NCBI RefSeq assembly: GCF_014174215.1
Contig: NZ_JABEQL010000006.1
Location: 1-64,000 of the forward strand
Length of the DNA stretch: 64,000 nucleotides
Reading direction: 5' to 3'
Source of the DNA: Gluconacetobacter tumulicola
GTDB lineage: Bacteria > Pseudomonadota > Alphaproteobacteria > Acetobacterales > Acetobacteraceae
Within the stretch, counting starts at the first letter, position 1. Each line of letters opens with the position of its first letter. Shown here piece by piece: positions 5,094 through 35,705 of this stretch. A program made the translations under genes and the position numbers. The notes below the pieces were generated by a model, which was not told the origin of the DNA, did no database searches, and saw only the letters and a list, made by a program, of their open reading frames with translations.

Positions 5094-5249
5094 GAAAGGA
5101 TCTTTCAGAGATGGCGCAATATTTGGACAGATAATCGGGAAACCTGAAAAAATACAGGAAAGGGATGTCGTCAAGGGTGGAAGTTCGAAAGCCCATTTCA
5201 TTCCTTTTATGGCACGATTGGGATCGTTCTTCCGGTCAAGGGGCTTGAA
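5094..5249 (+). promoter_or_regulatory. lrp-acdS divergent control region
   Basis: The 156 bp between the divergent starts must hold both promoters. It is AT-richer than its surroundings and contains the near-palindromic stretch aacctgaaaaaatacaggaa, a plausible Lrp-type site. An AAGGGG ribosome site precedes the acdS ATG. No promoter elements were assigned with certainty. Confidence 0.45.
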
Positions 5250-6342: not shown

Positions 6343-7824
6343 TTACGCCTCCACCGCATGCGGGTTCTCGACAATCGGCCAGATCGGGCGGCTGAGTTTG
6401 CGATAGCGGGTGCGGCGGGCGTCCGACGGATAATGCGTTCCGGCATCGACATAGAAGATCTCGTCCGCCACGGGCTGGAATGCCGCGTAGAAATGGTTGG
6501 TCGATTTCACCACCAGGTATTTCTTTTCGGCGATGTCGATGCCCAGGCCGGAAAAGATGTCCGGGTCGAATGTCTGGGCGCGGTTCGTGTTCAGGATGAC
6601 GTCGACCCGCGTGCCGGCAATCCGGACCACGGAAGAAGCCCCCAGGGGCACGCGGCTGGCGCCGAAACTCTCCCAGGCCTCGGTGACCGCCTGCAGGACC
6701 GTGACGGTGGCATCGATCGGATCGCCCGCGCCGGGGCCGCTCTTGCCGCCGAAGCGCAGCGCGAGGGTCGCCCCTTCGCCTGCGGCCAGGCAGAACGTGA
6801 CCGCCATCGGATCCCAGATCGTGGCCACGCCGACATCGTCCAGGCCCGCATCCAGCATGGCCCGCAGGATCAGGGTGCCGTCGCCGGCCACGCCGCCGCC
6901 GGGATTGTCCCATGTGTCGGCCAGGACGACGGGCCGGGTCGCGCCCGCCGCGACGCGGGCGGCCGCCAGATGCAGGGCCTCGTCCACTCCATGCTGGGTC
7001 ATGCGGGTGGCGCCGCGCAGGGCAAACAGGTCCATCCCCTTTTCGCGGGCAAGGCGCGCGCCGCGTTCCGGGTCGTTGTCGGTGACGACCACCATGCGCG
7101 CGCCGAGTTCGGGCACGTCGCCGGCCAGGAAACCGTGGATCAGCGAGATGCTGAGCACCGTATCCTGCCCTTCCAGTGCGCCCAGGCTGTCGATGAAGCC
7201 GCGCATCGGATGCTGGCTGGTCGGCAGGACGTCGATCATCCGGCAATCGAAGACCGAGATCACCGGACGGATTTCGCCACGCACCGCGCGCAGGGTCAGA
7301 TCGACGACCTGTTCGGCGCGCACGACGAAGTCAGTATGGGGAAATTCCAGGAAGGCGTTGAGGATATCGAGATTTTCGACACGCTTCGGCGTCAGGTGGC
7401 TATGCGGGTCGAACGTCGCGCCGATTACGGTGTCCGGCCCGGCCAGCGCGCGGACGCGCGCCAGAAGGTCGCCCTCGCAATCGTCATATCCCTGCGCGAC
7501 CATGGCGCCATGCAGTCCCAGCACGACGGCATCGACGGGCAGGGCGGCGCGAAGCTGGTCCAGGATTTCGTCGCGCAATGCCTCGTAAGTCTGGCGCTGG
7601 ACCAGGCCTCCGGGGTCGGCCCAGGTGGCGGTGCCCTCGACCAGTTCGAACCCCTCGCGGCTTGCCCGGCTGCGCAGGGACGGAAACACGGCGGAGCACA
7701 GTGTCGGCGTCGCCGGGTGCCGGCCCGGAGGGGCGTAGAACGCGGCGAGGAAGTTCGCGCGATCGGTGGGAACGGGCGAGAATGTATTGGTTTCCGTGGC
7801 GAGGGAGGCGACGAATACCTTCAT
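6343..7824 (-). CDS. MlrC-family (M81) metallopeptidase, first copy
   Basis: This 493-residue protein belongs to the M81 family named for MlrC, the enzyme that finishes degradation of linearised microcystin. The N-terminal DUF1485-type domain is marked by LATETNTFSP, GLHGAMVAQGYDDCEGD and DPHSHLT. The C-terminal MlrC domain carries LADTWDNPGGGVAGDGT and STNHFYAAF. The RidA gene lies just upstream (33 bp) on the same strand, and M81 genes are often found beside RidA and amino-acid genes. The natural substrate outside cyanotoxin degraders is unknown; a short peptide or N-substituted amino acid is my inference. A paralogue occurs at 23650-25113. Confidence 0.85.
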   Translation of the reverse strand: MKVFVASLATETNTFSPVPTDRANFLAAFYAPPGRHPATPTLCSAVFPSLRSRASREGFELVEGTATWADPGGLVQRQTYEALRDEILDQLRAALPVDAVVLGLHGAMVAQGYDDCEGDLLARVRALAGPDTVIGATFDPHSHLTPKRVENLDILNAFLEFPHTDFVVRAEQVVDLTLRAVRGEIRPVISVFDCRMIDVLPTSQHPMRGFIDSLGALEGQDTVLSISLIHGFLAGDVPELGARMVVVTDNDPERGARLAREKGMDLFALRGATRMTQHGVDEALHLAAARVAAGATRPVVLADTWDNPGGGVAGDGTLILRAMLDAGLDDVGVATIWDPMAVTFCLAAGEGATLALRFGGKSGPGAGDPIDATVTVLQAVTEAWESFGASRVPLGASSVVRIAGTRVDVILNTNRAQTFDPDIFSGLGIDIAEKKYLVVKSTNHFYAAFQPVADEIFYVDAGTHYPSDARRTRYRKLSRPIWPIVENPHAVEA

Positions 7825-7857
7825 GATCGGATTGTCCTGTTCGGCGGCGGGCGGAGG

Positions 7858-8220
7858 CTAGAGCGGTTTGTAGGCGATTGCCTCGATCTCGATCGTGATG
7901 TCGATCATCAATCCGGCCTCGACCGTCGTGCGCGCCGGGGGGGCGGAGGGGAAGAAGGTCGCATAGACCGCGTTGAAGGCGCCGAAATCCTTCCGGTCCG
8001 TCAGGATGACAAAGGTCTTGACGACGTCGGAAAGGTCGCAGCCCACAAGTTTCAGCGCGGCGGCGACATTGTCCATGACGACCCGGGTCTGTACGCCGAC
8101 ATCGCCCGCGACCACCTGGCCGTCGCGCACCGGCACCTGGCCCGAGACATAAACGAAATCCCCCGCGCGCACGGCGGGGGAGAGCGGGACATGTGACTGA
8201 CCGAAAACCGTCTTCATCAT
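7858..8220 (-). CDS. RidA-family enamine/imine deaminase
   Basis: This 120-residue protein is of the RidA (YjgF/YER057c/UK114) family, which hydrolyses reactive enamines and imines such as 2-aminoacrylate released by PLP enzymes. Features are FVYVSGQVPV near residue 30, TRVVMDNVAAALKLVG in the middle, and the C-terminal IDITIEIEAIAYKPL. The family arginine that binds the substrate carboxylate is not obvious near position 105 (SAPPARTTVEAG holds an arginine at about 101), so this may be an Rid subfamily rather than archetypal RidA. It is co-oriented between the aldolase-like gene and mlrC. The first of two tandem ATGs is favoured because AAAGGA lies 6 nt upstream. Confidence 0.85.
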   Translation of the reverse strand: MMKTVFGQSHVPLSPAVRAGDFVYVSGQVPVRDGQVVAGDVGVQTRVVMDNVAAALKLVGCDLSDVVKTFVILTDRKDFGAFNAVYATFFPSAPPARTTVEAGLMIDITIEIEAIAYKPL

Positions 8221-8250
8221 GAATGATCCTTTCAGGGGAAACGCCGGGGA

Positions 8251-9297
8251 TTACGACACGCGTCCGCGCGCGGCGACGGGAATGCAATCCAGTACCCGGT
8301 CGCCGGAGACGAGATAGACATGGTCGAACATGTTGCTGACCACGCAGGCATGATTGGGCACGATGCGCAGGCGCGCGCCGATCTCGGGCAGGCCGTGTTC
8401 GGCGCGCAGGATGCCGTGTTCCTCGCTCAGGCCGCTCACGATCGCCTGCGGGCAGGCGGGAACATGGCCGAATCCTTCCATGCCCAGCAGGTCGCTGGTC
8501 AGGCTCTTGGTCCCGGCATCGATGATCGCCCGGTCGGGGCGCGGCTTGCTGACCACGGTCGCCAGCACGGTCAGGGCACAATCCGCCATCGTGGCGGCAC
8601 CGGCGGCGACCTGTGAGCGGTCCATGTAGACGTAGGTGCCGGGCCGGTATTCCGTCAGTCCCGGAGTGGTGTGTGCCCGCCACAGGTCCGGCGTGCCGCC
8701 AGCCGAAACCGTGCCCACCGGTACCGAGGCGGCACTGAACACCGCAAGCGCGCGGTCGATCCATGCGGCCATCTCGGCGGTCTTGCCGGCTGCGGGATAG
8801 GTCATCAGGCCCGCGAAGCGCGCGCCCCCGCCCAGCGTGGCGGCAAGCGTCAGCGCGTCTTCCGGCGTCTGCACGCCGCAGCGGCCGCCACCGGTGTCGC
8901 ATTCGATCAGCACGTCGAACGACACATCCGCTGCGCGCGCGATGTCGTTGTAGCCCGCGACGGTGTACGGGCTGTCGGCGGCGACGGTCAGGCGCACCCG
9001 GCGCGCCAGCGCCGCCAGCCGCGTCAGCTTGTCGATGCCCACCAGGTTGTAGCTGATCAGGATGTCGTCCAGCCCCGCGTCGGCCATCACCTCGGCCTCG
9101 CCCAGCTTCTGGCAGGTGATGCCCCGGGCCCCGGCTTCGACCTGCAGGCGCGCGAAGGCCGGGATCTTGTGGGTCTTGATATGGGGGCGCAGGGCGAAGC
9201 CGTGCGTGTTCGCATAGGTCTGGGCGCGGCCGATATTGGCCTTCACCCGGTCGATGTCGACCAGGACGCAGGGGGTGGACAGCGTGTCGATATGCAT
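8251..9297 (-). CDS. D-threonine aldolase / D-3-hydroxyaspartate aldolase-type PLP enzyme
   Basis: This is a fold-type III PLP enzyme of the alanine-racemase N-terminal/DSD1-like group that acts on D-beta-hydroxy amino acids (D-threonine aldolase, D-hydroxyaspartate aldolase, D-serine dehydratase). The PLP lysine is K41 in LRPHIKTHK. The glycine-rich phosphate-binding region is VSAGGTPDLW. The C-terminal metal-binding His-x-Cys pair is H316/C318 in PNHACVVSNMFDHV. The 348-residue length is slightly under typical D-threonine aldolases. Aldol cleavage would give glycine plus an aldehyde; dehydratase activity would give an enamine, fitting the adjacent RidA gene. The start at 9297 is chosen because it begins with the family's short MHIDTL leader. 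Confidence 0.82.
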   Translation of the reverse strand: MHIDTLSTPCVLVDIDRVKANIGRAQTYANTHGFALRPHIKTHKIPAFARLQVEAGARGITCQKLGEAEVMADAGLDDILISYNLVGIDKLTRLAALARRVRLTVAADSPYTVAGYNDIARAADVSFDVLIECDTGGGRCGVQTPEDALTLAATLGGGARFAGLMTYPAAGKTAEMAAWIDRALAVFSAASVPVGTVSAGGTPDLWRAHTTPGLTEYRPGTYVYMDRSQVAAGAATMADCALTVLATVVSKPRPDRAIIDAGTKSLTSDLLGMEGFGHVPACPQAIVSGLSEEHGILRAEHGLPEIGARLRIVPNHACVVSNMFDHVYLVSGDRVLDCIPVAARGRVS

Positions 9298-9320
9298 GGC
9301 GTGACCTCGTGCGGAATGCG

Positions 9321-10667
9321 TTAGAAGAGCTGATAACAGAGCTGGAAGAGCACGGCGCCCGTCAGGGCCAGGACCGAGATGGCGGTTTCGATGACCGACC
9401 ATGTGACCAGCGTCTGGCCGACGCTCAGCCCCAGATATTCCTTGATCTGCCAGAAGACGGGATCGGTCACCGGCCCGAATGCGACCGATCCGGCGCCCGT
9501 GGCCAGCACCAGTGCCTCGGGCGTCACTAGCCCCGTCTGGGCGGCGAGGGGGGCGAGCATGGATGCCGCCGTGCTCATTGCGACGGTCGCCGAACCGGTG
9601 GCCAGCCGGACGATGGCCGCCAGGCCCCAGGCCAGCAGCAGGACCGGCATCCGCCACGAGACGGCCAGGTCGGTCAGCGCGTGCGAGACGCCGGCATCGA
9701 TCAGCGCGCGACCGAACCCGCCGCCCGCGCCGACCAGAAGCACGACGAAGGCTGTCGGTGCCAGGCAATCCTGCAGGCGGCGCGACAGAGTGGCCCATGG
9801 CGTGCCGCGCGCGATCCCCAGCGCCAGTCCGGCGAATAATGTCGCGATGACCAGCGCCATGTCGGTCGAGCCGAGCAACCCGGCGGCCCACTCCCCGGTG
9901 GCGCCGGGCAGAAGCACGCGCGCGACCTGTGCCGCCAGGATGATCAGGACGGGCGACAGCACCGCCAGCGCGCTGAGCCAGAAGGGGGGCAGCGGGCGGG
10001 CGACGTCGCGTTCGAGGAACTGGGCCTCCAGCGCGCTGATGCCGCGTACGTGCAGGCGCGGGACGATGAACCGCGCGAAGACCGGCCCCGCCAGCACGGC
10101 CGTCGGCACCATGACCGCCGTACCCAGCAGCAGCATGATGGGTACGCTGGCACCATAGGCCTGGATCGCGATTATGATCGCCGGATGCGGCGGCATCAGC
10201 GCGTGCGCCACCGACAGGCTGGAGGCCAGCGGCAGCGCCGCGAGCAGTAGAGGCTGCCCGGCCGCGCGCGCCGCGACGAAGGCCAGCGGCGCCAGCAGCA
10301 CGAAACCCACATCGAAGAATACCGGCAATCCCACCAGCAGGCCGATGGTCATCATTGCCCAATGGATGTTGCGCGGCCCGAAGCGGTCGATCAGGGTATC
10401 CGCGATGCGCTCGGCAGCGCCGCTTTCGGTCACGATGCGCCCCAGCATGGTGCCGAAGGCAATGATGAAGGCGATGTGCCCCAGCGCGTGGCCGGCGCCG
10501 TTTTCGAACGAGGCGACCGCGTCGGTCGGGGCGCGGCCGGTCGCCAGCCCCACCAGCACTGCGACGACGAACAGGGTCAGGATCGGTTCGCAGCGGAAAC
10601 GCGCAATCAGGACCATTACGGCCAGGATCGCAGCCGCGCCGACGACGATGACGAGGGGAAAGATCAT
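9321..10667 (-). CDS. GntP-family permease (gluconate or D-serine type)
   Basis: This 448-residue inner-membrane transporter belongs to the GntP family, whose members carry gluconate or, in the DsdX branch, D-serine by proton symport. About 12 to 13 hydrophobic segments are visible. The family signatures GTMLGRIVTESG, FFDVGFVLLAPL and ALMPPHPAIIIA fit. It lies 23 bp upstream of the D-threonine-aldolase-type gene in the same unit, so a D-hydroxyamino-acid substrate is more likely than gluconate; that is inference from context. The ATG at 10667 begins directly at the first membrane helix; 24 extra in-frame upstream codons are basic and probably not translated. Confidence 0.83.
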   Translation of the reverse strand: MIFPLVIVVGAAAILAVMVLIARFRCEPILTLFVVAVLVGLATGRAPTDAVASFENGAGHALGHIAFIIAFGTMLGRIVTESGAAERIADTLIDRFGPRNIHWAMMTIGLLVGLPVFFDVGFVLLAPLAFVAARAAGQPLLLAALPLASSLSVAHALMPPHPAIIIAIQAYGASVPIMLLLGTAVMVPTAVLAGPVFARFIVPRLHVRGISALEAQFLERDVARPLPPFWLSALAVLSPVLIILAAQVARVLLPGATGEWAAGLLGSTDMALVIATLFAGLALGIARGTPWATLSRRLQDCLAPTAFVVLLVGAGGGFGRALIDAGVSHALTDLAVSWRMPVLLLAWGLAAIVRLATGSATVAMSTAASMLAPLAAQTGLVTPEALVLATGAGSVAFGPVTDPVFWQIKEYLGLSVGQTLVTWSVIETAISVLALTGAVLFQLCYQLF

Positions 10668-10677
10668 GGACGGGGTA

Positions 10678-12105: not shown

Positions 12106-12136
12106 GATGGATCTTCCTTATGCGGCGAAACGGGAT

Positions 12137-14864: not shown

Positions 14865-14871
14865 CGACGGC

Positions 14872-16209: not shown

Positions 16210-16421
16210 GACTGGGCTCCTTGGCGATACGCGGAGGCGATACGCGCGGGGCGTCTGGGTCGAAACGTCCAAGTTCAGGCGCGAAGGGGATTGACCGGTC
16301 CCGGAAACAGAAGGTCAATCTTCCATATTATTACGAATAAGATACGAAATATCCGTGGAAAGATCCATAAAAACCGTTTTAGTTTGCAAGGAGCGTTCCC
16401 GCTCCGGCTGTGTCGCGGGCA
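16210..16421 (-). promoter_or_regulatory. AT-rich promoter/operator gap with inverted repeat
   Basis: This 212-bp gap separates the N-carbamoylase gene from the long unit that starts at 16209. Its central part (about 16310-16385) is conspicuously AT-rich for this genome. A 7-bp inverted repeat, attgacc (16290-16296) and ggtcaat (16313-16319), is spaced 16 nt apart, a layout common for dimeric regulators. A promoter for the unit is likely; individual -35/-10 boxes are not clear. Confidence 0.4.
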
Positions 16422-19826: not shown

Positions 19827-20009
19827 TGGCGAACCCAGCGCGAGCGGAGGAGCGACGCCTCATCAAGGCGCGGGCGGTGGTTTCCTGTCAAGAACGGAAT
19901 GAAAATAGTTTTTCGTGTTGTGATCGGAATGATAAACTTGTTACATGTCCCGCGTGACCGGGCGCGCCGGACGAGCCCGTGACCATTCCCCCGGATATCG
20001 AGGAACGCC
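19827..20009. promoter_or_regulatory. Divergent dpaL / M20 control region with direct repeats
   Basis: The intergenic region between the divergent starts contains an AT-rich stretch (about 19890-19945). In it the octamer cggaatga occurs twice (19895-19902 and 19925-19932), exactly 30 bp apart, or three helical turns. That spacing would place two bound regulator molecules on one DNA face. The binding protein is not known. Confidence 0.4.
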
Positions 20010-21167
20010 ATGGCTCTCGACGGTTCTGTTCTGGAACGCATGGTCGCGATCCGCCGCGACCTTCACAAACATCCCGAGCTTGCCTTCGCCGAATTCCGCA
20101 CGGCGGAATGTGTCGCGCGCGAACTGGCGGCGTGCGGCCTTTCGGTCCGGACCGGCATTGGCGGGACGGGGGTCGTCGGTACCCTGGCCAGGGGCGACGG
20201 GCCCGCCATCGGGCTGCGGGCCGACATGGATGCGCTCCCGATTACCGAGGAGACGCAGCTTCCCTATCGTTCCGCACGTCCCGGAATCATGCATGCGTGC
20301 GGCCATGACGGCCATGTGGCGATGCTGCTGGCGGCGGCGTATCACCTCGCGGCCATGGACGATCTTCGCGGCACCGTTCATTTCATCTTCCAGCCTGCGG
20401 AGGAATGCGAGGGTGGCGGCCGCGCGATGGTCGCCGACGGGCTGTTCCGCGATCATCCCTGCGACAGCGTCTGGGGACTGCATATCTGGCCAGGCCTGCC
20501 GGTCGGGCGCTTCGCGACCCGGGCGGGTGCGATCATGGCCTCGTTCGACACGTTCGAGATTGTCGTGCAGGGATCCGGCACCCATGCGGCGATGCCCGAA
20601 CGCGGCAATGATCCATTCATGGTCACCGCCGAACTGGTGATGGCCCTGCAGACGATCGTCAGCCGCAGGCTGAATCCGCTCTGCCCCGCTGTCGTCAGCG
20701 TGACCCAGATTCATGGCGGCGACGCCTGGAACGTCATTCCCGAACGCGTAACCATTCGCGGGACGGTACGCTGCCTGGACGAAGCGGCCCGCGGGCGGAT
20801 CGAGACGCTGATCGCCGAGATCGGGACCGGGGTAGCGGTGGCGCATGGTTGCCGGGCGGAGGTCCGCTATATTCATGGCTATCCATCGACGGTGAACACG
20901 GCCGACTCCGTGCCCTGGGTGGCACGGGCAGCCTCGCGCGCGGCCGGGGAGGGGGCATGCGACAGCGATGTCGCGCCCTCGATGGCGTCGGAGGATTTCG
21001 CCTTCATGCTGCAGGCGGCGCCCGGCGCCTATGCCTGGATCGGGGCGGACGGGGCGGTTCCCTCGCGCCCGCTGCACAATCCGGGCTTCGATTTCAACGA
21101 CGCGGCGCTGCCGTTGGGCGCGGCCTACTGGACCGCCCTGGCGCGGGACCTGACGGCGCGCGGCTGA
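20010..21167 (+). CDS. M20-family amidohydrolase (hippurate hydrolase type)
   Basis: This 385-residue enzyme is related to the one at 2064-3230 and shares its architecture. Visible motifs are IRRDLHKHPELAF at the N-terminus, GLRADMDALP, MHACGHDGHVAM, FQPAEECEGGGRAM, the dimerisation-domain GSGTHAAMPERG, the C-terminal MASEDFAFM and LHNPGFDFND. It should hydrolyse N-acyl or N-aroyl amino acids. It is the first gene of a plus-strand unit with a dehydrogenase and an aldehyde dehydrogenase, which suggests that the released product is further oxidised. An ATG start preceded by a GAGGAAC-like site is plausible. Confidence 0.88.
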   Translation: MALDGSVLERMVAIRRDLHKHPELAFAEFRTAECVARELAACGLSVRTGIGGTGVVGTLARGDGPAIGLRADMDALPITEETQLPYRSARPGIMHACGHDGHVAMLLAAAYHLAAMDDLRGTVHFIFQPAEECEGGGRAMVADGLFRDHPCDSVWGLHIWPGLPVGRFATRAGAIMASFDTFEIVVQGSGTHAAMPERGNDPFMVTAELVMALQTIVSRRLNPLCPAVVSVTQIHGGDAWNVIPERVTIRGTVRCLDEAARGRIETLIAEIGTGVAVAHGCRAEVRYIHGYPSTVNTADSVPWVARAASRAAGEGACDSDVAPSMASEDFAFMLQAAPGAYAWIGADGAVPSRPLHNPGFDFNDAALPLGAAYWTALARDLTARG

Positions 21168-21218
21168 CCGCTTCCCGACGCAGGGCGGAATCGTGACGTT
21201 TTTTGCAAGGATGGCCGG

Positions 21219-22109
21219 ATGTCGGGAATGATCGAAACTGTCGGTGTGATCGGGCTGGGCAATATGGGCCTGGCGATGGCCACCCGGCTGGCCGCCAGGG
21301 GCTTTGCCGTGCTGGGCCATGATATCGGCGCCCCGCGCCGGCAACTGGCCGCCGAGGCCGGCATTTCCGTCGCCGACGAGCTGGCCCCGGTGCTGCGCGC
21401 CGCGGATGCCATGGTCTTCTCCCTTCCCCTGGCCCGCGATGTCGAGGCGGTGGTGACCGCCCCGGGCGGCCTGCTGGCGCGGCGGGACCGCAAGGTCGTG
21501 GTGATCGACAGTTCGACCTCCGACCCCGGCACCACGCGGCGTCTGGCGCGGCAGCTTGCTCTGGCCGGGCACGGGCTGCTGGATGCGCCGGTCAGCGGTG
21601 GTCCGTCGGGTGCCGCCGCCGGGACGCTGACGATGATGGTCGGCGGCAGCGGGGAAGATTACGCCCAGGCGCGGCCGGTGCTCGACGCGCTGTCGGCGCG
21701 GGCGCCGCATGTGGGGCCGCCCGGCGCCGGCAATATCGTGAAGCTGGTGAATAATCTTCTCGTCGCCGCCCACCTGGTGACGACGGGTGAGGCGATGCGT
21801 CTGGCCGAAGCCGCCCGCCTGTCGGCGGGCGAGGCCATCGCGGTGGTCAACAGCGCGACGGGGCGCAGCGCGGTCAGCGAGACGATGTATCCGCGCTGGA
21901 TCCTGCCCGGCACCTTCGACAGCGGCTTTTCGGCCGGGCTAATGCGCAAGGATGTGCGGCTTGCCCTGGAACTGGCCGGCGAAACCGGGCTCGACCTGCC
22001 GCTCTCCGCCCATGTCGGGCGCCTGTGGCAGGGCGCCGCCATCGTCGACGGCGACGATTTCACCCGCATGGCCGATTTCCGCATGCCGGGAGAAACGCGC
22101 AATGTCTGA
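21219..22109 (+). CDS. NAD(P)-dependent beta-hydroxyacid dehydrogenase (3-hydroxyisobutyrate/tartronate-semialdehyde type)
   Basis: This 296-residue oxidoreductase interconverts a beta-hydroxy acid and its semialdehyde. The N-terminal Rossmann motif is VIGLGNMGLAMATRL. The substrate-binding DAPVSGGPSGAAAGTL and the catalytic lysine in NIVKLVNNLLVA are the family hallmarks. It overlaps the following aldehyde dehydrogenase by 8 bp, so the two are translationally coupled. The pair could oxidise a hydroxyacid to a semialdehyde and then to an acid. AAGGA lies 8 nt before the ATG. The exact hydroxyacid is unknown. Confidence 0.87.
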   Translation: MSGMIETVGVIGLGNMGLAMATRLAARGFAVLGHDIGAPRRQLAAEAGISVADELAPVLRAADAMVFSLPLARDVEAVVTAPGGLLARRDRKVVVIDSSTSDPGTTRRLARQLALAGHGLLDAPVSGGPSGAAAGTLTMMVGGSGEDYAQARPVLDALSARAPHVGPPGAGNIVKLVNNLLVAAHLVTTGEAMRLAEAARLSAGEAIAVVNSATGRSAVSETMYPRWILPGTFDSGFSAGLMRKDVRLALELAGETGLDLPLSAHVGRLWQGAAIVDGDDFTRMADFRMPGETRNV

Positions 22110-23640
22110 AAGACCTTTTTCCGATGCCGCCGCGCGGATTTCGGCGCTGCTGCGCATCTTCCTGCCTGGCGGGGTGGTGGGTAGCGTGGTTGCCGGCGAG
22201 ATCCTGCCTGGCACCGGGGCGGCGCTGGAGCTGGTGAACCCGGCCGACGGGCGGCCTTTCCTGTCGTTCGCCGACGCCGGCATCCCGGTGGTCGAGGCGG
22301 CCATGGCCGCGGCCGGGGCGGCGCAGCGCCACTGGTGGGGCATGACCGCGGCGGCCCGCGGTCGGGCGATGTGGGCGGTGGCGGCGCTGGTGCGCCATCA
22401 TGCCGACGCGCTTGCCGAGCTTGAGACGCTTTCGGCCGGCAAGCCGATCCGCGATACGCGCGGCGAGGTGGCGAAGGTCGCCGAGATGTTCGAATATTAT
22501 GCCGGCTGGTGCGACAAGCTGCATGGCGCGGTCATCCCCGTTCCCACCACCCATCTGAACTACACGCGCCACGAACCGTTCGGCACGGTCGTGCAGATCA
22601 CGCCGTGGAACGCGCCGGTCTTCACGGCGGGCTGGCAGATCGCGCCCGCCATCTGCGCGGGCAATGCGGTGGTGCTGAAACCGTCGGAACTGACGCCGCT
22701 GACCTCGCTCGCGCTCGGCATGCTGTGCGACCGGGCCGAGGGGATGCCGCGCGGGCTGGTCAATGTCCTGGCCGGCGCGGGGCTGACGACCGGCGCGGCG
22801 GCGGTGGCGCACCGCGTCACGCGGCTGGTGGTTTTTGTCGGTTCGGCAGAGGCGGGTGGGCAGATCGCCGCGGCCGCCGCGCGCAACATCGTGCCGAGCA
22901 TCCTGGAACTGGGCGGCAAGTCGGCGAACATCGTGTTTGCGGATGCCGACATGGATCAGGCCATCCTTGGTGCACAGGCGGCGATTTTCGGCGGGGCCGG
23001 GCAAAGCTGCGTCGCCGGGTCGCGCCTCTTGGTCCAGCGTGCCTGCCACCAGGCGATCATGGAGCGGCTGGTGGTCGCAGCGGGCCGGATTCCGGTCGGG
23101 TCGCCCATGGACCCGGCGACCCAGATCGGCCCGATCAACAACCGGCGCCAGCATGGCAGGATCGCCGCCATGGTGGCGGCGGCCGTCGAGGCCGGCGGGC
23201 ATCTGGCGGCCGGCGGTGCCTGCCCGGATGGCCTGCGCGACAGCGGCGGCTTCTATTACGCGCCGACCATCATCGACGCCGTGCCGCCCGATGCCCCGAT
23301 CGCGTGCGCGGAAGTGTTCGGTCCGGTACTGACGGTCCTGCCGTTCGACACGGAGGAGGAGGCGATCGCGCTGGCCAACGCCACGCCCTACGGCCTGGCC
23401 GGCGCGGTCTGGACGCGCGATGTCGGCCGCGCCCATCGCGTCGCGGCGGCCGTGCGCGCGGGCACGTTCTGGATCAATGGCTACAAGACCATCAACGTCG
23501 CCTCGCCGTTCGGGGGCTTTGGCCATTCGGGCTTCGGCCGCTCCTCGGGCAGCGAGGCGTTGCGCGCCTATACCCAGACCAAGAGCGTCTGGGTCGAGAC
23601 GGCCGCGCGGCCGGGCATGCCCTTCGGCTATGTCGGATGA
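22102..23640 (+). CDS. NAD(P)-dependent aldehyde dehydrogenase
   Basis: This 512-residue enzyme is of the ALDH superfamily. The cofactor motif is VQITPWNAPVF. The general base glutamate is in LELGGKSANIVFADAD, the catalytic cysteine in GGAGQSCVAGSRLL, and the C-terminal signature is ASPFGGFGHSGFGRSSG. It resembles the aminoaldehyde/betaine-aldehyde and related clades. The ATG lies inside the end of the preceding dehydrogenase gene. It converges on an mlrC gene whose stop is 9 bp away. The role inferred from context is oxidising the semialdehyde made by its partner. Confidence 0.88.
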   Translation: MSERPFSDAAARISALLRIFLPGGVVGSVVAGEILPGTGAALELVNPADGRPFLSFADAGIPVVEAAMAAAGAAQRHWWGMTAAARGRAMWAVAALVRHHADALAELETLSAGKPIRDTRGEVAKVAEMFEYYAGWCDKLHGAVIPVPTTHLNYTRHEPFGTVVQITPWNAPVFTAGWQIAPAICAGNAVVLKPSELTPLTSLALGMLCDRAEGMPRGLVNVLAGAGLTTGAAAVAHRVTRLVVFVGSAEAGGQIAAAAARNIVPSILELGGKSANIVFADADMDQAILGAQAAIFGGAGQSCVAGSRLLVQRACHQAIMERLVVAAGRIPVGSPMDPATQIGPINNRRQHGRIAAMVAAAVEAGGHLAAGGACPDGLRDSGGFYYAPTIIDAVPPDAPIACAEVFGPVLTVLPFDTEEEAIALANATPYGLAGAVWTRDVGRAHRVAAAVRAGTFWINGYKTINVASPFGGFGHSGFGRSSGSEALRAYTQTKSVWVETAARPGMPFGYVG

Positions 23641-23649
23641 TGCCGGGGG

Positions 23650-25113
23650 TCAGGCGGCGAAGGGATCCTCCACCTGGGGCCAGAGGGGACGGCCCGCCCG
23701 TTTCAGGTCCAGGCCGCGCATGTCCGGCTGCACGCAGCCCGGGGCCGCGACGAAGAGAACCTGTGATGCCAGTCCGGCGAAACGGTTGTAGAAATGCTGG
23801 GCGGATTTCACCACGATGCCCCGCCGGGCGGCGAGGTCGATACCCAGGTTGGTAAAGGCTTCGGGCGAGAAGGTCTGCTGCCGACGCGACATGACGACGA
23901 CGTCCAGGCCATCGATCCGCAGCCATGCCGCCGGCCCCAGCGAGGATGTGCCGCCCCCCAGCCCGACCTGTCGAAGGTCGTCGGTGACCCCCTGGACGGT
24001 CGCGACCACGTCGAGGGGATCGCCGGAAGTCGGGCCGCATTTGCCCCCCAGCCTCAGCGGCAGCGTCTCGCCCGCCCCGACTTCGCGGCACAAGGCGACG
24101 ACCATCGGGTCCCAGAAGCAGCCCACCGCGACGTCGCGCACCCCGCGCGCGATCAGGCGCCGCAGGATCTCGGTATTATCGGACGGCGCGCCGCCGCCCG
24201 CGTTATCGGACACGTCGGCCAGGACGACCGGGGCGCCCGTTTCCGCCAGGACGCGGTCGATCGCCTCGTCTGGCGTGAAATAGCGCGTAGTGTTATCGCC
24301 GCGCATCGCCCAGACTTCCTCCCCCAGAGCGGTGGCCAGTGACTGGGCCTTGCTCGGGTCGCCATCGGCGATGACGAGCATCTTGGCACCGACATCGGGC
24401 ACGTCGGCCCAGGGAAAGCCATGGGCGAACGAGACGGAGAGAATGCCGTCCCGCCCCTCCAGGGCCTGCATCCGGTCCACGAACGCGCGCGCCGGCGCCT
24501 CTGGCGTGCGCCAGATCGACAGCATGCGGCAATCATGCGCGGCCATGACCGGGCGGATCGCGCCACGGGCCGTGTCGGCGGCCAGCCGGTAGAGTTCCGT
24601 CGCGCGCGGGGCGATATCGTCGTGCGGATATTCCTTGTAGGTGACGATCAGGTCCGCCTGCGCCATCATGGCGGGGGTCAGGTGGCAATGCAGGTCCAGC
24701 ACTGTCCCGATGACGGTATCCGGCCCGGCCACCGCGCGCAGGTGCGTCAGCATGTCGCCCTCGCAATCGTCATAGCCGACGGCGACCATCGCGCCGTGCA
24801 TCGATATCAGGATGACGTCGACCGGCAGGGCCGCGCGCAGATCCTCGATCACGTAGCCGCGCAGTTCCTCATAGACGCGCCGCAGGGTCGGTCCGGCCGG
24901 CTGGGCGAATGAACACACGCTCTCGACGATGTCGTGCCCTTCCTGTTCCGCGAGCGCCCGCCAGGTCTTCAGTGGCAGGTTCGCCATGGTGGTGGGATGG
25001 TCTGTCGCGCCGCTGCGGAACCAGTCGCGTTCGCCCATGAAGGCGCCGCGCCCCGTCATGATGGGCGAGAACGTGTTGGTCTCGGTCCCCAATGTCGCGA
25101 TGAAGATTTTCAT
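23650..25113 (-). CDS. MlrC-family (M81) metallopeptidase, second copy
   Basis: This 487-residue paralogue of the protein at 6343-7824 shares LGTETNTFSP at the N-terminus, SMHGAMVAVGYDDCEGDML, DLHCHLTP, LADVSDNAGGGAPSDNT and VKSAQHFYNRFAGLA. The family takes its name from microcystin-degrading MlrC, but here peptides or N-substituted amino acids are the more likely substrates. It overlaps the CobW-type gene by 4 bp and is the last gene of the co-oriented set RpiR-TonB receptor-CapA-deacylase-CobW-MlrC. Whether the two MlrC copies differ in specificity cannot be told from sequence. Confidence 0.85.
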   Translation of the reverse strand: MKIFIATLGTETNTFSPIMTGRGAFMGERDWFRSGATDHPTTMANLPLKTWRALAEQEGHDIVESVCSFAQPAGPTLRRVYEELRGYVIEDLRAALPVDVILISMHGAMVAVGYDDCEGDMLTHLRAVAGPDTVIGTVLDLHCHLTPAMMAQADLIVTYKEYPHDDIAPRATELYRLAADTARGAIRPVMAAHDCRMLSIWRTPEAPARAFVDRMQALEGRDGILSVSFAHGFPWADVPDVGAKMLVIADGDPSKAQSLATALGEEVWAMRGDNTTRYFTPDEAIDRVLAETGAPVVLADVSDNAGGGAPSDNTEILRRLIARGVRDVAVGCFWDPMVVALCREVGAGETLPLRLGGKCGPTSGDPLDVVATVQGVTDDLRQVGLGGGTSSLGPAAWLRIDGLDVVVMSRRQQTFSPEAFTNLGIDLAARRGIVVKSAQHFYNRFAGLASQVLFVAAPGCVQPDMRGLDLKRAGRPLWPQVEDPFAA

Positions 25114-26090
25114 TTCAGAATCCTTGTCGTTCGCAATGGTGCCGGGAGCGCGTCGAGGTCGCGCAGCAGGGAGGCGGGGTCGAAGGTGCCCCGGCGGCCG
25201 ATGAACACGATCCGGGTCGAACGGTCGGCCAGCGCGCGTTCGGGGGCCGGGCCGACGGTGGCGCGCATGCCCACCATCTGCAGCAACATTCCGCGATACG
25301 GGGCCGAGGCGGCGTACAGAATGCCCTTGGCCCGCAGCAGGCCCGGCGCGTGACGCTCCAGCACCGTGCGGAACGACATCACGTCGATGGGCGCGTCCGA
25401 CCGCCAGGCCAGGCTGGCGAACTCCGGGTCCGCCGCTACTTCTCCCGCCGACGCGCGCAGGGCGCGAACGCGGGGGGCAAGTGCCGCTGCCGCCCGCAGG
25501 GCCGGATGGGCCAGGAGCCTCGCCCCGTCGCGCGCGATCGCGACGCCGGGGCGGATCGCGTGCAGGGCGTGTTCGGCCCGGTCGACAGCCTCTGCCTCCA
25601 GCCGATCGGCGTGCGACAGCACGATCAGATCGGCCGCGTGGATCTGTTCGAGGAAGAGCGGATCGCGCGTCACCGGCCCGGCCTCGGCCAGCGCCTCGGC
25701 GTCGGTCACGCACACGATGCCTTCGAAGGACACATGCGCCCAGATGACCGGGTCCAGCAGGGCCCGGCGCATGTCGTCGAGCCGCGACACACCGCTGCAT
25801 TCGACGAAGATCCCCTCCGGCGGTGGGTCGCGCGCCAGCAGCCGGCGCAGCATTCCCAGCAGGTCGCCCTGCAGCGAACAGCAGATACAGCCGTTGCGCA
25901 GCGCCAGCACGTCTTCCCCGCGCCGGGCGATCAGTTCGCCATCGATGTCGATCGCGCCGAAATCGTTCACGATCACGGCCAGGCGGCGCGCCGCCTGCGC
26001 AGTCACGATCCGGTTGAGCAGGGTGGTCTTTCCGGCGCCCAGGAACCCGCCGATGATGGTGATGGGAACGGCAGCGGCCGTGCCGGTCAC
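25110..26090 (-). CDS. CobW/COG0523-family metal-chaperone GTPase
   Basis: This 326-residue G3E GTPase is of the CobW/YjiA/ZagA group, which delivers Zn or Co to metalloenzymes. The P-loop is [14 protein letters not shown]. The metal-binding CxCC motif is in GCICCSLQGD. VNDFGAIDIDGELI and SHADRLEAE supply the switch and base-recognition regions. The C-terminal CobW_C domain is short, and no His-rich tail is visible. GTG at 26090 overlaps the deacylase stop (GTGA), fixing the start by coupling. Its place between two metalloamidohydrolase genes suggests it loads one or both; that is inference. Confidence 0.85.
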   Translation of the reverse strand: MTGTAAAVPITIIGGFLGAGKTTLLNRIVTAQAARRLAVIVNDFGAIDIDGELIARRGEDVLALRNGCICCSLQGDLLGMLRRLLARDPPPEGIFVECSGVSRLDDMRRALLDPVIWAHVSFEGIVCVTDAEALAEAGPVTRDPLFLEQIHAADLIVLSHADRLEAEAVDRAEHALHAIRPGVAIARDGARLLAHPALRAAAALAPRVRALRASAGEVAADPEFASLAWRSDAPIDVMSFRTVLERHAPGLLRAKGILYAASAPYRGMLLQMVGMRATVGPAPERALADRSTRIVFIGRRGTFDPASLLRDLDALPAPLRTTRILK

Positions 26091-27577
26091 GAACCGGTCC
26101 CGCGTCCACGGATCGGCTGGCCGGGAAAGGCGTCCGTGACCAGCTGCCCGTCGGCGATGACGCGGCTGCCGTTGACGAACAGGTGCCGCACGCCCTCGGC
26201 ATGGCGGTTCATCGCCATGAATTCGGCGCGGTCGGTGATCGTTTCCACATCGAAGACGACCAGATCCGCGTCGCATCCTTCCTGCACGCGGCCCTTGCGG
26301 CGCATGGCGGGCACGCTGGCCTCCAGAATCCCGGCGGGGCCCAGCGAGCAGCGCCGCATGGCTTCGCGCAGCGAGACCTTGCCACGTTCGCGCAGATATT
26401 CGCGCAGGAAGCGCGTGAACGTGCCGGACGAGCGCGGATGCGATGCGGCTTGCTCGGGCAGCGGCCAGGCGTCGCCTTCATAGATCGTCCCGTCCGGCAT
26501 GGTCCACGGCATGGCGTCCGAGGCAATGATCCCACCGGGATAAAGAACGGAAAGATCCAGGAGTTCCCGCGCCTCGGGATCGGTTTCGGTATCCAGGAAA
26601 TGCCACAGCACCAGAGATTCCGGCCGCGCCTGGCCTGCCGCGAGCAGTTCGTCGCGGTCCCTGATACGGTGTCCGCCGTCGACGAACTGGATGGCGGTGT
26701 ACGGGTTGCCCGTGCGCTCGGTAAAGGCCGGATCGGCGAAGAAGGGCGCGCCGACCACCGTGGAGCCTGTGCCGTAGGGATAGGCCTCGACCGTGATCGG
26801 CAGGCCCTGGGCCTGGGCCTTGGCGACGATTTCGGCCGCGCGGCGCACGTCGCGCAGGCTGGTGCTGTTGAAATGGCAGATATGCATATGCGCGCCGGTT
26901 GCCCCTGCATAGCCTATCAGCCGCGTGTAGGCATCGATCGAACTGCGCGGATCGATATTCGAGGAGTAGGCGATGTGCGTGTAGGTCGGCACGTCGTGCC
27001 GGGCGGCGAGCGCACAGAGTTCCACGATCTCCTTGGCACCGGCGCCGGGCAGGTAGGCATGCGGGATGCCGATGCCGATCCCGCCTTCGGCCAGCCCGGA
27101 CTCGACCATCGCGAGGATCGCGGCAAGATCGCGGTCAGTCGCCGTTTCCTGGCTCCAGCGCGGATCGTCGAAGCAGCGCCCCATGAAGGACAGCGACGGT
27201 TCCAGCGGACGGCCGATCATCACGGCGATCCGCGCGAATGCCCACGCCACCGACGCTCCGTAATTGAGTACCCGGCGCGCGGCCTTCTGCCGATCGTACC
27301 ACGCGCCGATCGGCAGGATGCCGACTTCGAGTTCCAGGCTGCTGGTAACGCCGTCGAAGGCCTGCATGCGGTCGGCCGCCAGAGACTGGCCATGGGCGTG
27401 AATGTCGATGAAGCCCGGCGCCACCACCAGCCCCCGCGCGTCGATCTCCACCGCCGCGTCGCCCGTCACATGGCCGACGCGTTCGATCACGCCGGAACGG
27501 ATCGCGAGATCGCCGGGGGATTCGAGCCCGGTTTCCGGATCGACGAGCAGCCCGCCCCGAATGATCGTGTCATACAT
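26087..27577 (-). CDS. N-acyl-D-amino-acid deacylase (D-aminoacylase) family amidohydrolase
   Basis: This 496-residue member of the amidohydrolase superfamily (amidohydro_3) releases D-amino acids from N-acyl-D-amino acids in characterised relatives. The N-terminal beta-sandwich opens with YDTIIRGGLLVDPETG. The metal motif is APGFIDIHAHG, where typical D-aminoacylases have HxHxD. ICHFNS and IIASDAMPWTMP sit at positions of later metal or catalytic residues. The C-terminal GCDADLVVFD and NGSRVI are typical. The HAHGQS variation and low motif match leave room for a different N-acyl or cyclic amide substrate. AAAGGAAC precedes the ATG, and the gene overlaps its neighbours on both sides. Confidence 0.78.
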   Translation of the reverse strand: MYDTIIRGGLLVDPETGLESPGDLAIRSGVIERVGHVTGDAAVEIDARGLVVAPGFIDIHAHGQSLAADRMQAFDGVTSSLELEVGILPIGAWYDRQKAARRVLNYGASVAWAFARIAVMIGRPLEPSLSFMGRCFDDPRWSQETATDRDLAAILAMVESGLAEGGIGIGIPHAYLPGAGAKEIVELCALAARHDVPTYTHIAYSSNIDPRSSIDAYTRLIGYAGATGAHMHICHFNSTSLRDVRRAAEIVAKAQAQGLPITVEAYPYGTGSTVVGAPFFADPAFTERTGNPYTAIQFVDGGHRIRDRDELLAAGQARPESLVLWHFLDTETDPEARELLDLSVLYPGGIIASDAMPWTMPDGTIYEGDAWPLPEQAASHPRSSGTFTRFLREYLRERGKVSLREAMRRCSLGPAGILEASVPAMRRKGRVQEGCDADLVVFDVETITDRAEFMAMNRHAEGVRHLFVNGSRVIADGQLVTDAFPGQPIRGRGTGS

Positions 27578-28907
27578 GCTCTGTTCCTTTTGCGATCTGC
27601 CAACGCAGCGTATCGCCTTCCTGCTCGAAATGTGTGCCGAACGACCGGGACAGCGCCTGAAGCCGCCCGAGGATCGACGATGCGTGCTCGCCCGTTGCCA
27701 GGCGCGGCACGCCACGTCGGTGCGGCGGGCCGCCCAATCCCAGTTCCACCGGATGGATGGTCATGGAGGTCACGCCGCCCGGCCCGAACTCGCAGACCGG
27801 CATTACCGTTTCCCAGAACCGGCTTTCCGCCGGGAAGCCCTTTGTGTCGGCCTCGGTCCGCAGGCGGTAGACATGGGCGGGCGTCAGGTCCGGGCTTGCG
27901 CGGAAACGGCGGTAGGAATCGGCCGGCAGGCGCGGGACGAGTTCGTTCTGGCCGATGAAATTGCCAAGGCTGTAGAAAATCGGCCGCTCCCTGTAGATCT
28001 CGATGCCACGCAGGAGATGCGGCCCGTGCCCTGCTACCAGGTCGGCCCCTGCGTCGATCGCCGCATGGGCGAATTCCACCAGGAACTCGGCAGGGATTTC
28101 GGGGTCCATTTCTCCGACGGCGTTGTAGCCGACCTCATGGGCATGCAGGCTGACCACCACCAGGTCCGAGACCAGCCGTGCCTCCTTCACCCAGCGGGCG
28201 ATGTCCGCCATGTCCTCGGCGTTGGCGGTGGTCCTGATCCTGGGCGCCGGGGCGGCGCGGAAATTCATCCCGCCGAGCGGCAGGATGTCTTCCGACGCGG
28301 GCGGGAAGCCGAAGCCGAGCCGGATCGTCGTCTTGCGGATCGATTCCAGGCCCAGTTGCTCCGCGATTTCCCGCAGAGTCGCCATCTGCGGCGGCGTCAC
28401 CTCGTACACGGCTGCGTGTCGCAGGGGGTTCGGCCCTGGCCGCCCCTGCATCGCGTCCGTCTGTGCCGCCGCCTCCTGCCCGGTGGAGAAAGTTGCGGTG
28501 CAGGACAGCAACGACACGGTGCCTTCGGGACGTGTGCAGTAGACGGGCATGCGTGCCCGCGTCAGGGTTTCGCCGATCCCGGCATAGAGGATTTGCCGTG
28601 CGTCCAGCGCCGCGATCGCCTTGCGCAGTCCCGAGATGCTGTAGTCGAGGCTGTGGTTGGTCGCCGTGGCGAACAGGTCGAACCCCGCCTCGGCGAGTTC
28701 GTCGATCACCCAGGACGGCGCCCCGAAATGCGAGCCGCCGCTCTCGAGGGCCGGATCTCCTTCGAAATCGTTCGGCAGAACCTCCAGATTGGTAAAGGCG
28801 ATGTCCGAACTGCGGATCAGGTCGAACAGGGGGCTGATCGCGGGATCGGTCATGCTGTTGAGGCGGCGGAGTAGGATGCTGTCGCCGGTCAGGGCCAGGG
28901 TGGGCAT
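27570..28907 (-). CDS. CapA/PgsA-like metallophosphatase-fold protein
   Basis: This 445-residue protein is of the PGA_cap family (calcineurin-like fold), named for CapA of poly-gamma-glutamate capsule systems. Diagnostic segments are LALTGDSILLRRL at the N-terminus, FTNLEV, FATATNHSLDYSISGLR, VVVSLHAHEVGYN and a HGPHLLRG / YSLGNF pair. CapA proteins are usually membrane-anchored, but no signal peptide or membrane helix is visible from the ATG at 28907, so this one looks cytoplasmic. Capsule synthetase genes (capB, capC) are absent. It overlaps the deacylase gene by 8 bp and is therefore more likely a catabolic phosphoesterase or hydrolase than a capsule gene. Confidence 0.8.
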   Translation of the reverse strand: MPTLALTGDSILLRRLNSMTDPAISPLFDLIRSSDIAFTNLEVLPNDFEGDPALESGGSHFGAPSWVIDELAEAGFDLFATATNHSLDYSISGLRKAIAALDARQILYAGIGETLTRARMPVYCTRPEGTVSLLSCTATFSTGQEAAAQTDAMQGRPGPNPLRHAAVYEVTPPQMATLREIAEQLGLESIRKTTIRLGFGFPPASEDILPLGGMNFRAAPAPRIRTTANAEDMADIARWVKEARLVSDLVVVSLHAHEVGYNAVGEMDPEIPAEFLVEFAHAAIDAGADLVAGHGPHLLRGIEIYRERPIFYSLGNFIGQNELVPRLPADSYRRFRASPDLTPAHVYRLRTEADTKGFPAESRFWETVMPVCEFGPGGVTSMTIHPVELGLGGPPHRRGVPRLATGEHASSILGRLQALSRSFGTHFEQEGDTLRWQIAKGTEHV

Positions 28908-32950: not shown

Positions 32951-32985
32951 AAAAACCCACGAAACCAGCAGGTTCGTGGGTTTTT
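32951..32985. terminator. Bidirectional intrinsic terminator upstream of hupT
   Basis: A 13-bp perfect inverted repeat (aaaaacccacgaa ... ttcgtgggttttt) encloses a short loop that can pair further. A-run and T-run flanks let it end transcripts from either strand. It insulates the hydrogenase locus from upstream transcription. Confidence 0.8.
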
Positions 32986-32989
32986 CGTG

Positions 32990-33020: not shown

Positions 33021-33140
33021 ACAATCAATCTCTTCGTAGGTCCAATCGGGTCTGAAGCTCCCCTTGGGGTAAACCCATCGAGTATATTCCATCCGGTTAT
33101 GGTATCCTTTCAGGGTCATGCTGATCTGAGGAAAGCGATC

Positions 33141-35695: not shown

Positions 35696-35705
35696 CGTGC
35701 CCGGC

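Follow-up and report, generated by a model that had tools for sequence, protein, structure and literature searches.

The first 64,000 nucleotides of contig NZ_JABEQL010000006.1 of Gluconacetobacter tumulicola (assembly GCF_014174215.1; 4.29 Mb in 90 contigs), hereafter the window, carry an island of hydrolase, lyase and transporter genes that an initial annotation placed at positions 6,343 to 28,907 and read as possibly one undescribed pathway. Here, we have annotated the region of ~3.2–32.3 kb by Pfam and NCBIfam profile searches and by solved-structure searches, and compared it with a panel of 13 congeners. The best explanation, to which we give a probability of about 0.6, is that at least three catabolic modules, inherited separately and serving N-substituted amino acids mostly of the D type, make up the island as a mosaic, and that it is not one pathway. 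Module 1 would be a hydrolytic tail for the degradation of diureidopropionate. The most useful outcome is a predicted hydrolytic diureidopropionate pathway that can be tested, together with a likely catabolic clade of MslH-type epimerases. Gene content, gene overlaps, conserved neighbourhoods and kept active-site residues were read from the DNA, and substrates and reaction steps are predicted from them. The chemistry of D-, N-acyl- and N-carbamoyl-amino acids proposed in the initial annotation agrees with the enzyme families found.

Module 1 consists of three genes that overlap one another, coding for a diaminopropionate ammonia-lyase (DpaL), an amidase of the M20 hydantoinase/carbamoylase family (Carb) and an N-carbamoyl-D-amino-acid amidohydrolase (D-carbamoylase). 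Alignment shows that DpaL keeps positions K77, D120 and D189 of the solved E. coli DpaL, which we take to have catalytic roles. The solved-structure matches of Carb are carbamoylases and beta-ureidopropionases, and its gene overlaps that of DpaL by 11 nt (start codon read by eye). The D-carbamoylase matches 1erz over 300 residues, a full-length similarity, and E45, K125 and C170, presumably the Glu/Lys/Cys catalytic triad, are invariant in a four-row alignment. It is thus a clear member of the family of 1erz and others with its catalytic positions kept, and differs from them in that its gene overlaps with those of DpaL and an M20 carbamoylase. To our knowledge, D-hydantoinase and D-carbamoylase are industrial enzymes without a settled natural role.

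How the three enzymes could act together is suggested by the reductive uric-acid pathway. As described in the accessible parts of PMC12507026 and PMC12990295, a hydantoinase yields 2,3-diureidopropionate, YgeW or UacY takes one ureido group and YgeY the other, and the step of YgeX (DpaL) yields pyruvate; of the two versions published, one runs through albizziin. Module 1 shares with this pathway the YgeX/DpaL family of the terminal lyase and an M20-superfamily hydrolase, and some relatives of the trio share YgfK, XdhD, SsnA and hydantoinase neighbours. It differs in having a D-carbamoylase and a hydantoinase/carbamoylase-family (TIGR01879) enzyme in place of YgeW/UacY and YgeY, which these two most likely replace. 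On chemical grounds, the 2-ureido group of a D-configured acid is a fitting target for a D-carbamoylase, and the 3-ureido group of albizziin (2-amino-3-ureidopropionate) for a beta-ureidopropionase relative such as Carb. The D-carbamoylase would take the 2-ureido group off 2,3-diureidopropionate to give albizziin, Carb would take the 3-ureido group off albizziin to give diaminopropionate, and DpaL would convert diaminopropionate to pyruvate and ammonia.

The trio recurs in other genomes. We surveyed, among named genomes, the best 80 of 567 stretches with a related D-carbamoylase, and counted a trio where the same strand carries DpaL, Carb and D-carbamoylase within 3.6 kb. The trio stands in order in 27 of the 80 loci (26 under a stricter gap rule) and in 19 of the 30 closest, while 14 loci have Carb only, 10 have DpaL only and 29 have neither. 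Its hosts include Halomonas, Vibrio, Thauera and Pleomorphomonas, and Cupriavidus necator N-1 also carries it. One orthologous TRAP importer accompanies 14 of the trios and one orthologous ABC importer four; nine have neither, five of them on short contigs. The TRAP importer is found in 7 of the 53 non-trio loci. A hydantoinase (at least 50% identity to the protein of locus L122) is present in four trios, namely three of the four ABC loci and L121, a short contig with no importer visible, and in none of the 14 TRAP loci; it occurs in 3/53 non-trio loci with the L122 query and in 5/53 with the Rhizobium daejeonense protein as query. In the plasmid loci of R. daejeonense and Rhizobium ACO-34A, an annotated hydantoinase, ABC importer and regulator adjoin the trio. 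We infer that the cyclic hydantoin would be imported in one of the ABC and TRAP versions, and the ring-opened acid in the other. The D-carbamoylase loci of Paracoccus yeei and Agrobacterium vitis have no DpaL annotated in the fetched stretch and lend no support. A molybdenum enzyme whose genes adjoin the trio in Rhizobium ACO-34A was rejected as a conserved partner, its large subunit having matched only 2 of 81 loci, and weakly.

A tree of 81 D-carbamoylases places the window enzyme in a clade of eight rows (support 100/99), all linked to DpaL, that includes both Pleomorphomonas rows. Linkage to DpaL requires 13 changes on this tree, compared with a mean of 27 after shuffling. Genes of uric-acid degradation were sought with E. 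coli K-12 proteins, all eight of which were recovered in an E. coli control stretch. In both Pleomorphomonas loci (L123 and L124), DpaL, Carb and D-carbamoylase are followed consecutively by homologues of YgfK, XdhD and SsnA, with 25–39% identity to the E. coli proteins; the XdhD homologue of L123 scores 885.5 bits against a cut-off of 830 for selenium-dependent xanthine dehydrogenase (XDH). YgeW and YgeY were not found in the two fetched stretches, and no hydantoinase was seen there. Since a YgfK homologue adjoins these trios, the reading of module 1 as a diureidopropionate tail is strengthened. An actinomycete metagenome-assembled genome (L199) has, consecutively, Carb, D-carbamoylase, a selenium-type XDH (846.6 bits, cut-off 830), an SsnA-like protein, an F420-dependent reductase, DpaL (318, cut-off 276) and a hydantoinase (476.8, cut-off 393); neither YgeW nor YgeY was found in that stretch. 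Homologues of Carb, D-carbamoylase, XDH, SsnA and the F420 reductase lie together in two Acidimicrobiales loci that are near copies (L170, L171), and in L196 Carb, D-carbamoylase and XDH are followed by the contig end. Altogether, an SsnA homologue is present in 5 of the 80 D-carbamoylase loci.

That the island is a mosaic came from comparison with congeners. The sister genome G003 keeps every island gene in order at 91–100% identity, which is weak evidence because the two genomes are too close. In the more distant congener G011, the genes for an RpiR-type regulator, a TonB-dependent receptor, a D-aminoacylase-like amidohydrolase (D-acylase), a CobW GTPase and an M81-family protein (MlrC2) are divergent to those for MFS2, MFS1, an amidase, a GntP permease, a D-threonine-aldolase-type enzyme (DTA), RidA and a second M81 protein (MlrC1). 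Identities are 46–84%, and an ACC deaminase/Lrp pair lies alongside. No gene for DpaL, Carb, D-carbamoylase, the amidohydrolases M20a and M20b, or an MslH-like protein was found in that island. Since G011 holds most of modules 2 and 3 without module 1, modules 2 and 3 may work together and module 1 is separate. DpaL is present in 1 of the 13 congeners and the D-acylase in 3; the MslH-like protein is present in 9, in 8 of them apart from the D-acylase and with other partners; and the trio of MlrC1, RidA and DTA is present in 4 and contiguous in all 4. So module 1 is a separate portable unit, acquired apart from the rest, as was the MslH-like gene. The proposal of one undescribed pathway does not agree with this distribution: it fails for the diaminopropionate genes, and a single pathway is still possible for modules 2 and 3.

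Module 2 comprises the RpiR-type regulator, the TonB receptor, the MslH-like protein, the D-acylase, CobW and MlrC2, in which the MslH-like gene overlaps the D-acylase gene by 8 nt, the D-acylase gene overlaps that of CobW by 4 nt, and the CobW gene overlaps that of MlrC2 by 4 nt. The enzyme first labelled a D-acylase stands as a D-acylase-like amidohydrolase; it has HxH and Ser-Asp motifs, and at the aligned place it lacks the Cys that serves characterised D-aminoacylases as a metal ligand. Its function is predicted from the family. A CobW gene lies beside D-acylase homologues in 5 of 5 stretches from other genera, in three more genomes and in 4 of 4 plasmid loci, one of which is probably the same plasmid as one among the three further genomes. 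An M81 gene adjoins the D-acylase gene, or is one gene away, in 3 of the 4 plasmid loci and in none of the 5 other-genus stretches. The TonB receptor, counted in the initial annotation with an island ending at 28,907, is present, and its gene lies just beyond that end. This receptor would carry an amino acid in N-acyl or peptidyl form through the outer membrane, the MslH-like protein, as an epimerase, may invert the alpha-carbon of the imported compound and so enable stereospecific amide hydrolases, and CobW perhaps supplies a metal.

The protein described as CapA-like indeed belongs to the PGA_cap family, but its solved-structure match and its residues show that it is MslH-like. MslH is a lasso-peptide C-terminal Trp epimerase whose essential residues, as given in the part of PMC10406935 available, are the metal ligands E44, N87, H259 and H261 and the dyads H88/D91 and H295/D11. 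The window protein aligns with MslH (8gq9) over residues 3–431, nearly its full length, with 149 of 306 columns identical in the compared blocks, and keeps all eight of these residues. It differs in its setting, a catabolic unit with a TonB receptor and amide hydrolases, and in falling below the NCBIfam MslH equivalog cut-off (395.2 against 700). All eight residues are also present in 21 of 26 relatives; of the other five, L020 and L219 are incomplete, and a single residue is changed in each of L022, L028 and L220 (L014 nearly duplicates L013 and did not enter the count). The position of H261 could be read in 19 of 28 relatives (L235, L236, L239, L245, L248, L249, L252, L254 and L256 had been translated in a wrong frame and were left out): it is His in 10 at 54–97% identity and in one at 32%, and Gly in 8 at 26–30%, two of the eight being near copies. 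His261 sets the MslH-like group apart from most other readable PGA_cap proteins.

Many MslH-like genes have peptide importers or M20 genes as neighbours. Of 25 MslH-like loci, 8 have an M20 gene at a distance of no more than 1.5 kb and one has it in the far flanks, which hold 3.7 times as many bases; the near count is favoured by the fact that two of the five M20 queries were taken from beside MslH-like genes. With only the three M20 queries of the window, the numbers are 7/25 near and one in the far flanks; six of these seven, all in the taxonomic family of the window, were found by Carb and share one arrangement, so that they do not count as independent cases. Frequent neighbours are ABC importers of peptide-related types (queries from one such locus) and TonB receptors. 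The MslH-like gene follows ABC importer genes and 'dapE' in Ruegeria and Sulfitobacter, lies near a D-aminoacylase and an alanine-racemase-like gene in Haladaptatus, and near Xaa-Pro peptidases and a dipeptide-type importer on pNGR234a. In L083, from another genus, a homologue of M20a (64%) overlaps the MslH-like gene by 4 nt, and in Roseomonas marmotae the only neighbours are a binding protein and a transposase. At a congener locus (L079, 9,568–10,971 and neighbours), MslH-like, MFS, M20 and TonB genes stand opposite a divergent LysR gene, an uptake unit of similar kind put together differently. No lasso-peptide-processing family was recognised among the scanned island proteins, short precursor open reading frames (ORFs) not having been searched. 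From these sequence relationships, the group is likely a catabolic clade of MslH-type epimerases.

Module 3 comprises MFS transporters, the amidase, GntP, DTA, RidA and MlrC1. In the available part of PMC9537276, the ong cluster, which serves an oxidized chitin sugar acid, combines TonB receptors and an RpiR regulator with the D-aminoacylase-like OngB, the fold-type III pyridoxal-phosphate (PLP) enzyme OngC, the RidA protein OngD and a 2-keto-3-deoxygluconate (KDG) kinase, and OngC deaminates D-glucosaminate, D-serine and D-threonine. The island shares with it an RpiR-type regulator, a TonB receptor, a D-aminoacylase-like deacylase, a fold-type III PLP enzyme and RidA. Compared with the ong cluster (OngA-D, KdgK, OngR, OngOT), the island has M81 proteins, CobW, the MslH-like protein, and GntP and MFS transporters instead of SSS. 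It has no recognised GH20 and no kinase homologue was found; its acylase is of another subfamily and lacks an aligned Cys for the Cys/His/His metal site of the OngB-type subtype V acylases. Since the module 3 set resembles the ong pathway, the M81 proteins are predicted, by analogy, to be deacylases ahead of a fold-type III PLP deaminase, so that module 3 would deacylate and then deaminate a 2-amino acid. Its substrate may be an amino-sugar acid or a beta-hydroxy-D-amino acid, both being possible. In Paracoccus and Phaeobacter, M81, DTA and RidA genes lie together with an RpiR regulator, a TRAP importer and a kinase, the kinases matching KDG-kinase models best (239 and 172 bits, below the cut-off of 400). 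One locus each in Phyllobacterium and Nitratireductor has M81, DTA and RidA with sugar-type ABC importers, and two other M81 plasmid loci have no DTA annotated in the stretch. Genes for both RidA and DTA lie within 1.5 kb in only the 5 closest of 30 M81 loci (window included), and RidA alone in one more.

Several observations weigh against our reading of the island and its modules. Only 2 of the 27 trios have uric-acid head genes in the fetched stretch; the SsnA-like protein of L199 is below its cut-off (254.6 vs 444); the fetched stretches of L170 and L171 show no DpaL or hydantoinase; and a separate YgeY homologue is present in trios L145 and L197 and in the Cupriavidus locus. Searches with E. 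coli queries, which did not include UacY, found no YgeW, YgeY, HyuA, YgfK, SsnA, YgfM or XdhD in the window, and no SsnA over the cut-off was found in its genome (best 117.8, cut-off 455.5; over the cut-off in 1 of 14 control genomes). Since SsnA, a marker of the pathway head, was not found, the substrate of module 1 is probably taken up or made otherwise in this genome. The one D-hydantoinase of the genome over the cut-off belongs to a uracil-type cluster on contig C15, among dihydropyrimidine-dehydrogenase-like proteins, and we rejected it as a part of module 1. Because 29 of the 80 D-carbamoylase loci have neither partner adjacent and linkage to DpaL changes 13 times on the tree, the D-carbamoylase family has other uses. 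Among DpaL loci of relatives, only 3 of 14 (L086, L089, L099) hold Carb or D-carbamoylase, and 0 of 10 loci from the same family do; as so few hold them, DpaL also works in other settings. Outside module 1, the missing Cys ligand of the D-acylase and the 24 of 30 M81 loci without RidA or DTA within 1.5 kb also count against our reading. The lack of SsnA over the cut-off, the many D-carbamoylase loci without DpaL and the 25 of 27 trios that show no uric-acid head gene in the fetched stretch would suit a module 1 devoted to albizziin from plants, to other N-carbamoyl amino acids or to hydantoins at large rather than to uric-acid-derived diureidopropionate, as would some Acetobacteraceae-like DpaL loci that lie beside other M20 or amidase genes (L093, L096). 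We consider such a general ureido role rather unlikely, since two distinct ureido hydrolases with DpaL best fit a doubly carbamoylated diaminopropionate, and within the clade of the window enzyme the trio is succeeded by homologues of YgfK, XdhD and SsnA. It is improbable that the whole island degrades one compound, such as a D-amino-acid peptide, siderophore or toxin containing diaminopropionate. Most of its genes share one strand, where they form two tight runs, and the island is intact in G003, but that genome is nearly identical and adds little, the trio has its own distribution and importers, and G011 and the single congener with DpaL set module 1 apart. The diaminopropionate-built compound of the initial annotation is also unneeded, for the DpaL unit recurs with its own importers and twice beside uric-acid genes.

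For modules 2 and 3, it is conceivable, as a tentative alternative that we take seriously, that they form an ong-like pathway for an N-acyl amino-sugar acid, e.g. N-acetyl-D-glucosaminate, in which the D-acylase or MlrC would deacylate and DTA with RidA would deaminate. The components shared with the ong cluster in the part of PMC9537276 available, the Paracoccus and Phaeobacter loci, and the best matches of GntP and MFS to sugar-acid transporter models (below the cut-off for MFS) argue for it. Against it, no GH20 was recognised among the scanned island proteins, and the D-acylase, besides its missing Cys, scores N-acyl-D-glutamate deacylase and D-aminoacylase above OngB. A homologue of the Paracoccus kinase was not found in the window genome either, in a search with one query and no positive control that did not cover other kinase families. 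As for the MslH-like protein, we doubt that it is an ordinary CapA-type or metallophosphatase-fold protein without epimerase activity. The annotated relatives that we viewed are called CapA, its score is 395 of the 700 required for MslH, and the settings of L083, with a GDP-mannose-dehydratase-like gene upstream of the MslH-like gene, and L081, with a polysaccharide-deacetylase-family gene, recall sugar polymers (capsule genes were not searched for as such). These points are countered by the eight kept residues, including a metal-binding His in whose place all 8 readable PGA_cap proteins at 26–30% identity have Gly, and by the M20 genes near 7 of 25 loci as found with the window's own three queries. 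Degradation of a microcystin-type cyclic peptide by an mlr system is very improbable. The two MlrC homologues share the M81 family with the microcystinase (7ylq), but both are far below the MlrC equivalog cut-off of 999 (395.2 for MlrC1 and 335.9 for MlrC2) and have other partners, and M81 proteins are widespread in other settings. None of the scanned island proteins could be assigned to the MlrA or MlrB families, no search having been directed at mlrA, mlrB or mlrD.

Our preferred reading of separately inherited modules can be extended, tentatively, to a joint proposal. D-hydantoinase and D-carbamoylase, together with an M20 carbamoylase and DpaL, could be a natural route for the hydrolysis of diureidopropionate that rounds off the reductive breakdown of uric acid in some bacteria and, in many others, harvests its intermediates; and many 'CapA family' proteins could be catabolic epimerases of the MslH type, with a calcineurin fold, that prepare imported peptides or N-acyl amino acids, by inverting residues, for stereospecific hydrolases of the M20, D-acylase or M81 kind. 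If this is true, D-carbamoylase, a well-known industrial enzyme, gains a natural substrate, the recently elucidated reductive uric-acid pathway gains a third, fully hydrolytic removal of its two ureido groups, and a protein class named for capsule synthesis becomes a source of candidate catabolic epimerases. In the open-licence literature, we found no prior report linking diaminopropionate ammonia-lyase with carbamoyl-D-amino acids, no report of a CapA family protein as an epimerase of dipeptides, none joining COG0523 with aminoacylase and none tying the M81 family to D-amino acids. Both the hydrolytic trio and the MslH-type epimerase can be tested with single purified enzymes. Commercial ureidomethyl-hydantoin and 5-ureidodihydrouracil, and an albizziin standard, were used in the urate study (PMC12507026, accessible part).

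Table. Features of the island and its neighbours in the window, in the order of the modules. Scores are in bits.
Feature	Start	End	Strand	Basis and remarks
Diaminopropionate ammonia-lyase, DpaL/YgeX type (DpaL)	18621	19826	-	482.4, cut-off 276
M20 hydantoinase/carbamoylase-family amidase, predicted 3-ureido hydrolase (Carb)	17333	18631	-	TIGR01879 418.5, cut-off 204
N-carbamoyl-D-amino-acid amidohydrolase, predicted 2-ureido hydrolase (D-carbamoylase)	16422	17336	-	404 to 1erz; start not settled
MurR/RpiR-type regulator	31437	32315	-	Profile search
TonB-dependent receptor	28951	31350	-	Profile search; homologues in L100 (66%) and L079 (51%)
MslH-type calcineurin-fold epimerase homologue ('CapA-like', PGA_cap)	27570	28907	-	363 to solved MslH 8gq9
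D-aminoacylase-like amidohydrolase (PRK09061 subfamily, PF07969)	26087	27577	-	744, cut-off 340
CobW/COG0523 GTPase	25110	26090	-	PF02492 145; GTG start read by eye
M81/MlrC protein 2 (MlrC2)	23650	25113	-	Profile and solved-structure searches
MFS transporter 2	14872	16272	-	Best model D-galactonate transporter subfamily, below cut-off
MFS transporter 1	13629	14867	-	Profile search; start approximate
Amidase-signature hydrolase	12137	13642	-	PF01425 301
M20a amidohydrolase	10678	12105	-	TIGR01891 255.6, cut-off 153.75; not in G011 island
GntP-family permease	9321	10667	-	TIGR00791 368, cut-off 292.75; start approximate
Fold-type III PLP enzyme, D-threonine aldolase/D-hydroxyaspartate type (DTA)	8251	9297	-	Best solved match 4v15 D-threonine aldolase, 171.7; start approximate
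RidA	7858	8220	-	Profile search
M81/MlrC protein 1 (MlrC1)	6343	7824	-	376 to solved MlrC 7ylq
M20b amidohydrolase	20010	21167	+	Profile search; heads divergent 3-gene unit
3-Hydroxyisobutyrate-dehydrogenase-like protein	21219	22109	+	Profile search
Aldehyde dehydrogenase	22195	23640	+	Profile search; start not settled
ACC deaminase, island neighbour	5250	6266	+	TIGR01274 549, cut-off 392
Lrp-family regulator, island neighbour	4629	5093	-	Profile search; start approximate
FAD-dependent D-amino-acid-dehydrogenase-like protein, island neighbour	3261	4580	-	Profile search; start approximate

The genes are arranged in three runs. One minus-strand run, from 19,826 down to 6,343, holds DpaL, Carb, D-carbamoylase, two MFS transporters, the amidase, M20a, GntP, DTA, RidA and MlrC1, with several gene overlaps and a largest gap of 149 bp (with the chosen start codons). 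The other, from 32,315 down to 23,650, holds RpiR, the TonB receptor, the 'CapA' protein, the D-acylase-like enzyme, the CobW GTPase and MlrC2. Between them, a plus-strand run (20,010–23,640) holds M20b, the 3-hydroxyisobutyrate-dehydrogenase-like protein and the aldehyde dehydrogenase. Profile and solved-structure searches confirmed most of the families in the initial annotation, namely the two M81/MlrC proteins, RidA, the fold-type III DTA-type enzyme, the amidase, the D-carbamoylase, the diaminopropionate ammonia-lyase and three M20-superfamily proteins (M20a, Carb and M20b). That gene list had left out the CobW/COG0523 GTPase, the two dehydrogenases and the RpiR regulator, and instead of its four classes of transporter or receptor we found three (GntP, MFS and TonB). 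A minus-strand ORF at 19,941–21,119 has no family match and was rejected, the true gene being that of M20b on the plus strand.

Some minor observations concern the surroundings. A dehydrogenase pair like that of the plus-strand unit precedes the D-carbamoylase in Bradyrhizobium aeschynomenes (locus L186), and another M20 amidohydrolase, 48% identical to M20b, lies at 2,094–3,197 (+), outside the island. The ACC (1-aminocyclopropane-1-carboxylate) deaminase with its divergent Lrp-type regulator (4,629–6,266) is the pair that also flanks the shorter island of G011. The uracil-catabolism-like cluster on contig C15 (40,000–59,999, L222) has a hydantoinase, a carbamoylase and its own TonB receptor. 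Beyond the island, a [NiFe] hydrogenase region (34,502–43,346) carries small and large subunit genes, two of each, together with HypF and a cytochrome b; a PAS histidine kinase (32,976–34,499) adjoins it, and a sigma-54-type response regulator lies at 48,707–50,380. A single open frame at 56,228–57,631 consists of an integrase core followed by a match to the C-terminal end of the NiFe hydrogenase large subunit, and is perhaps an insertion scar.

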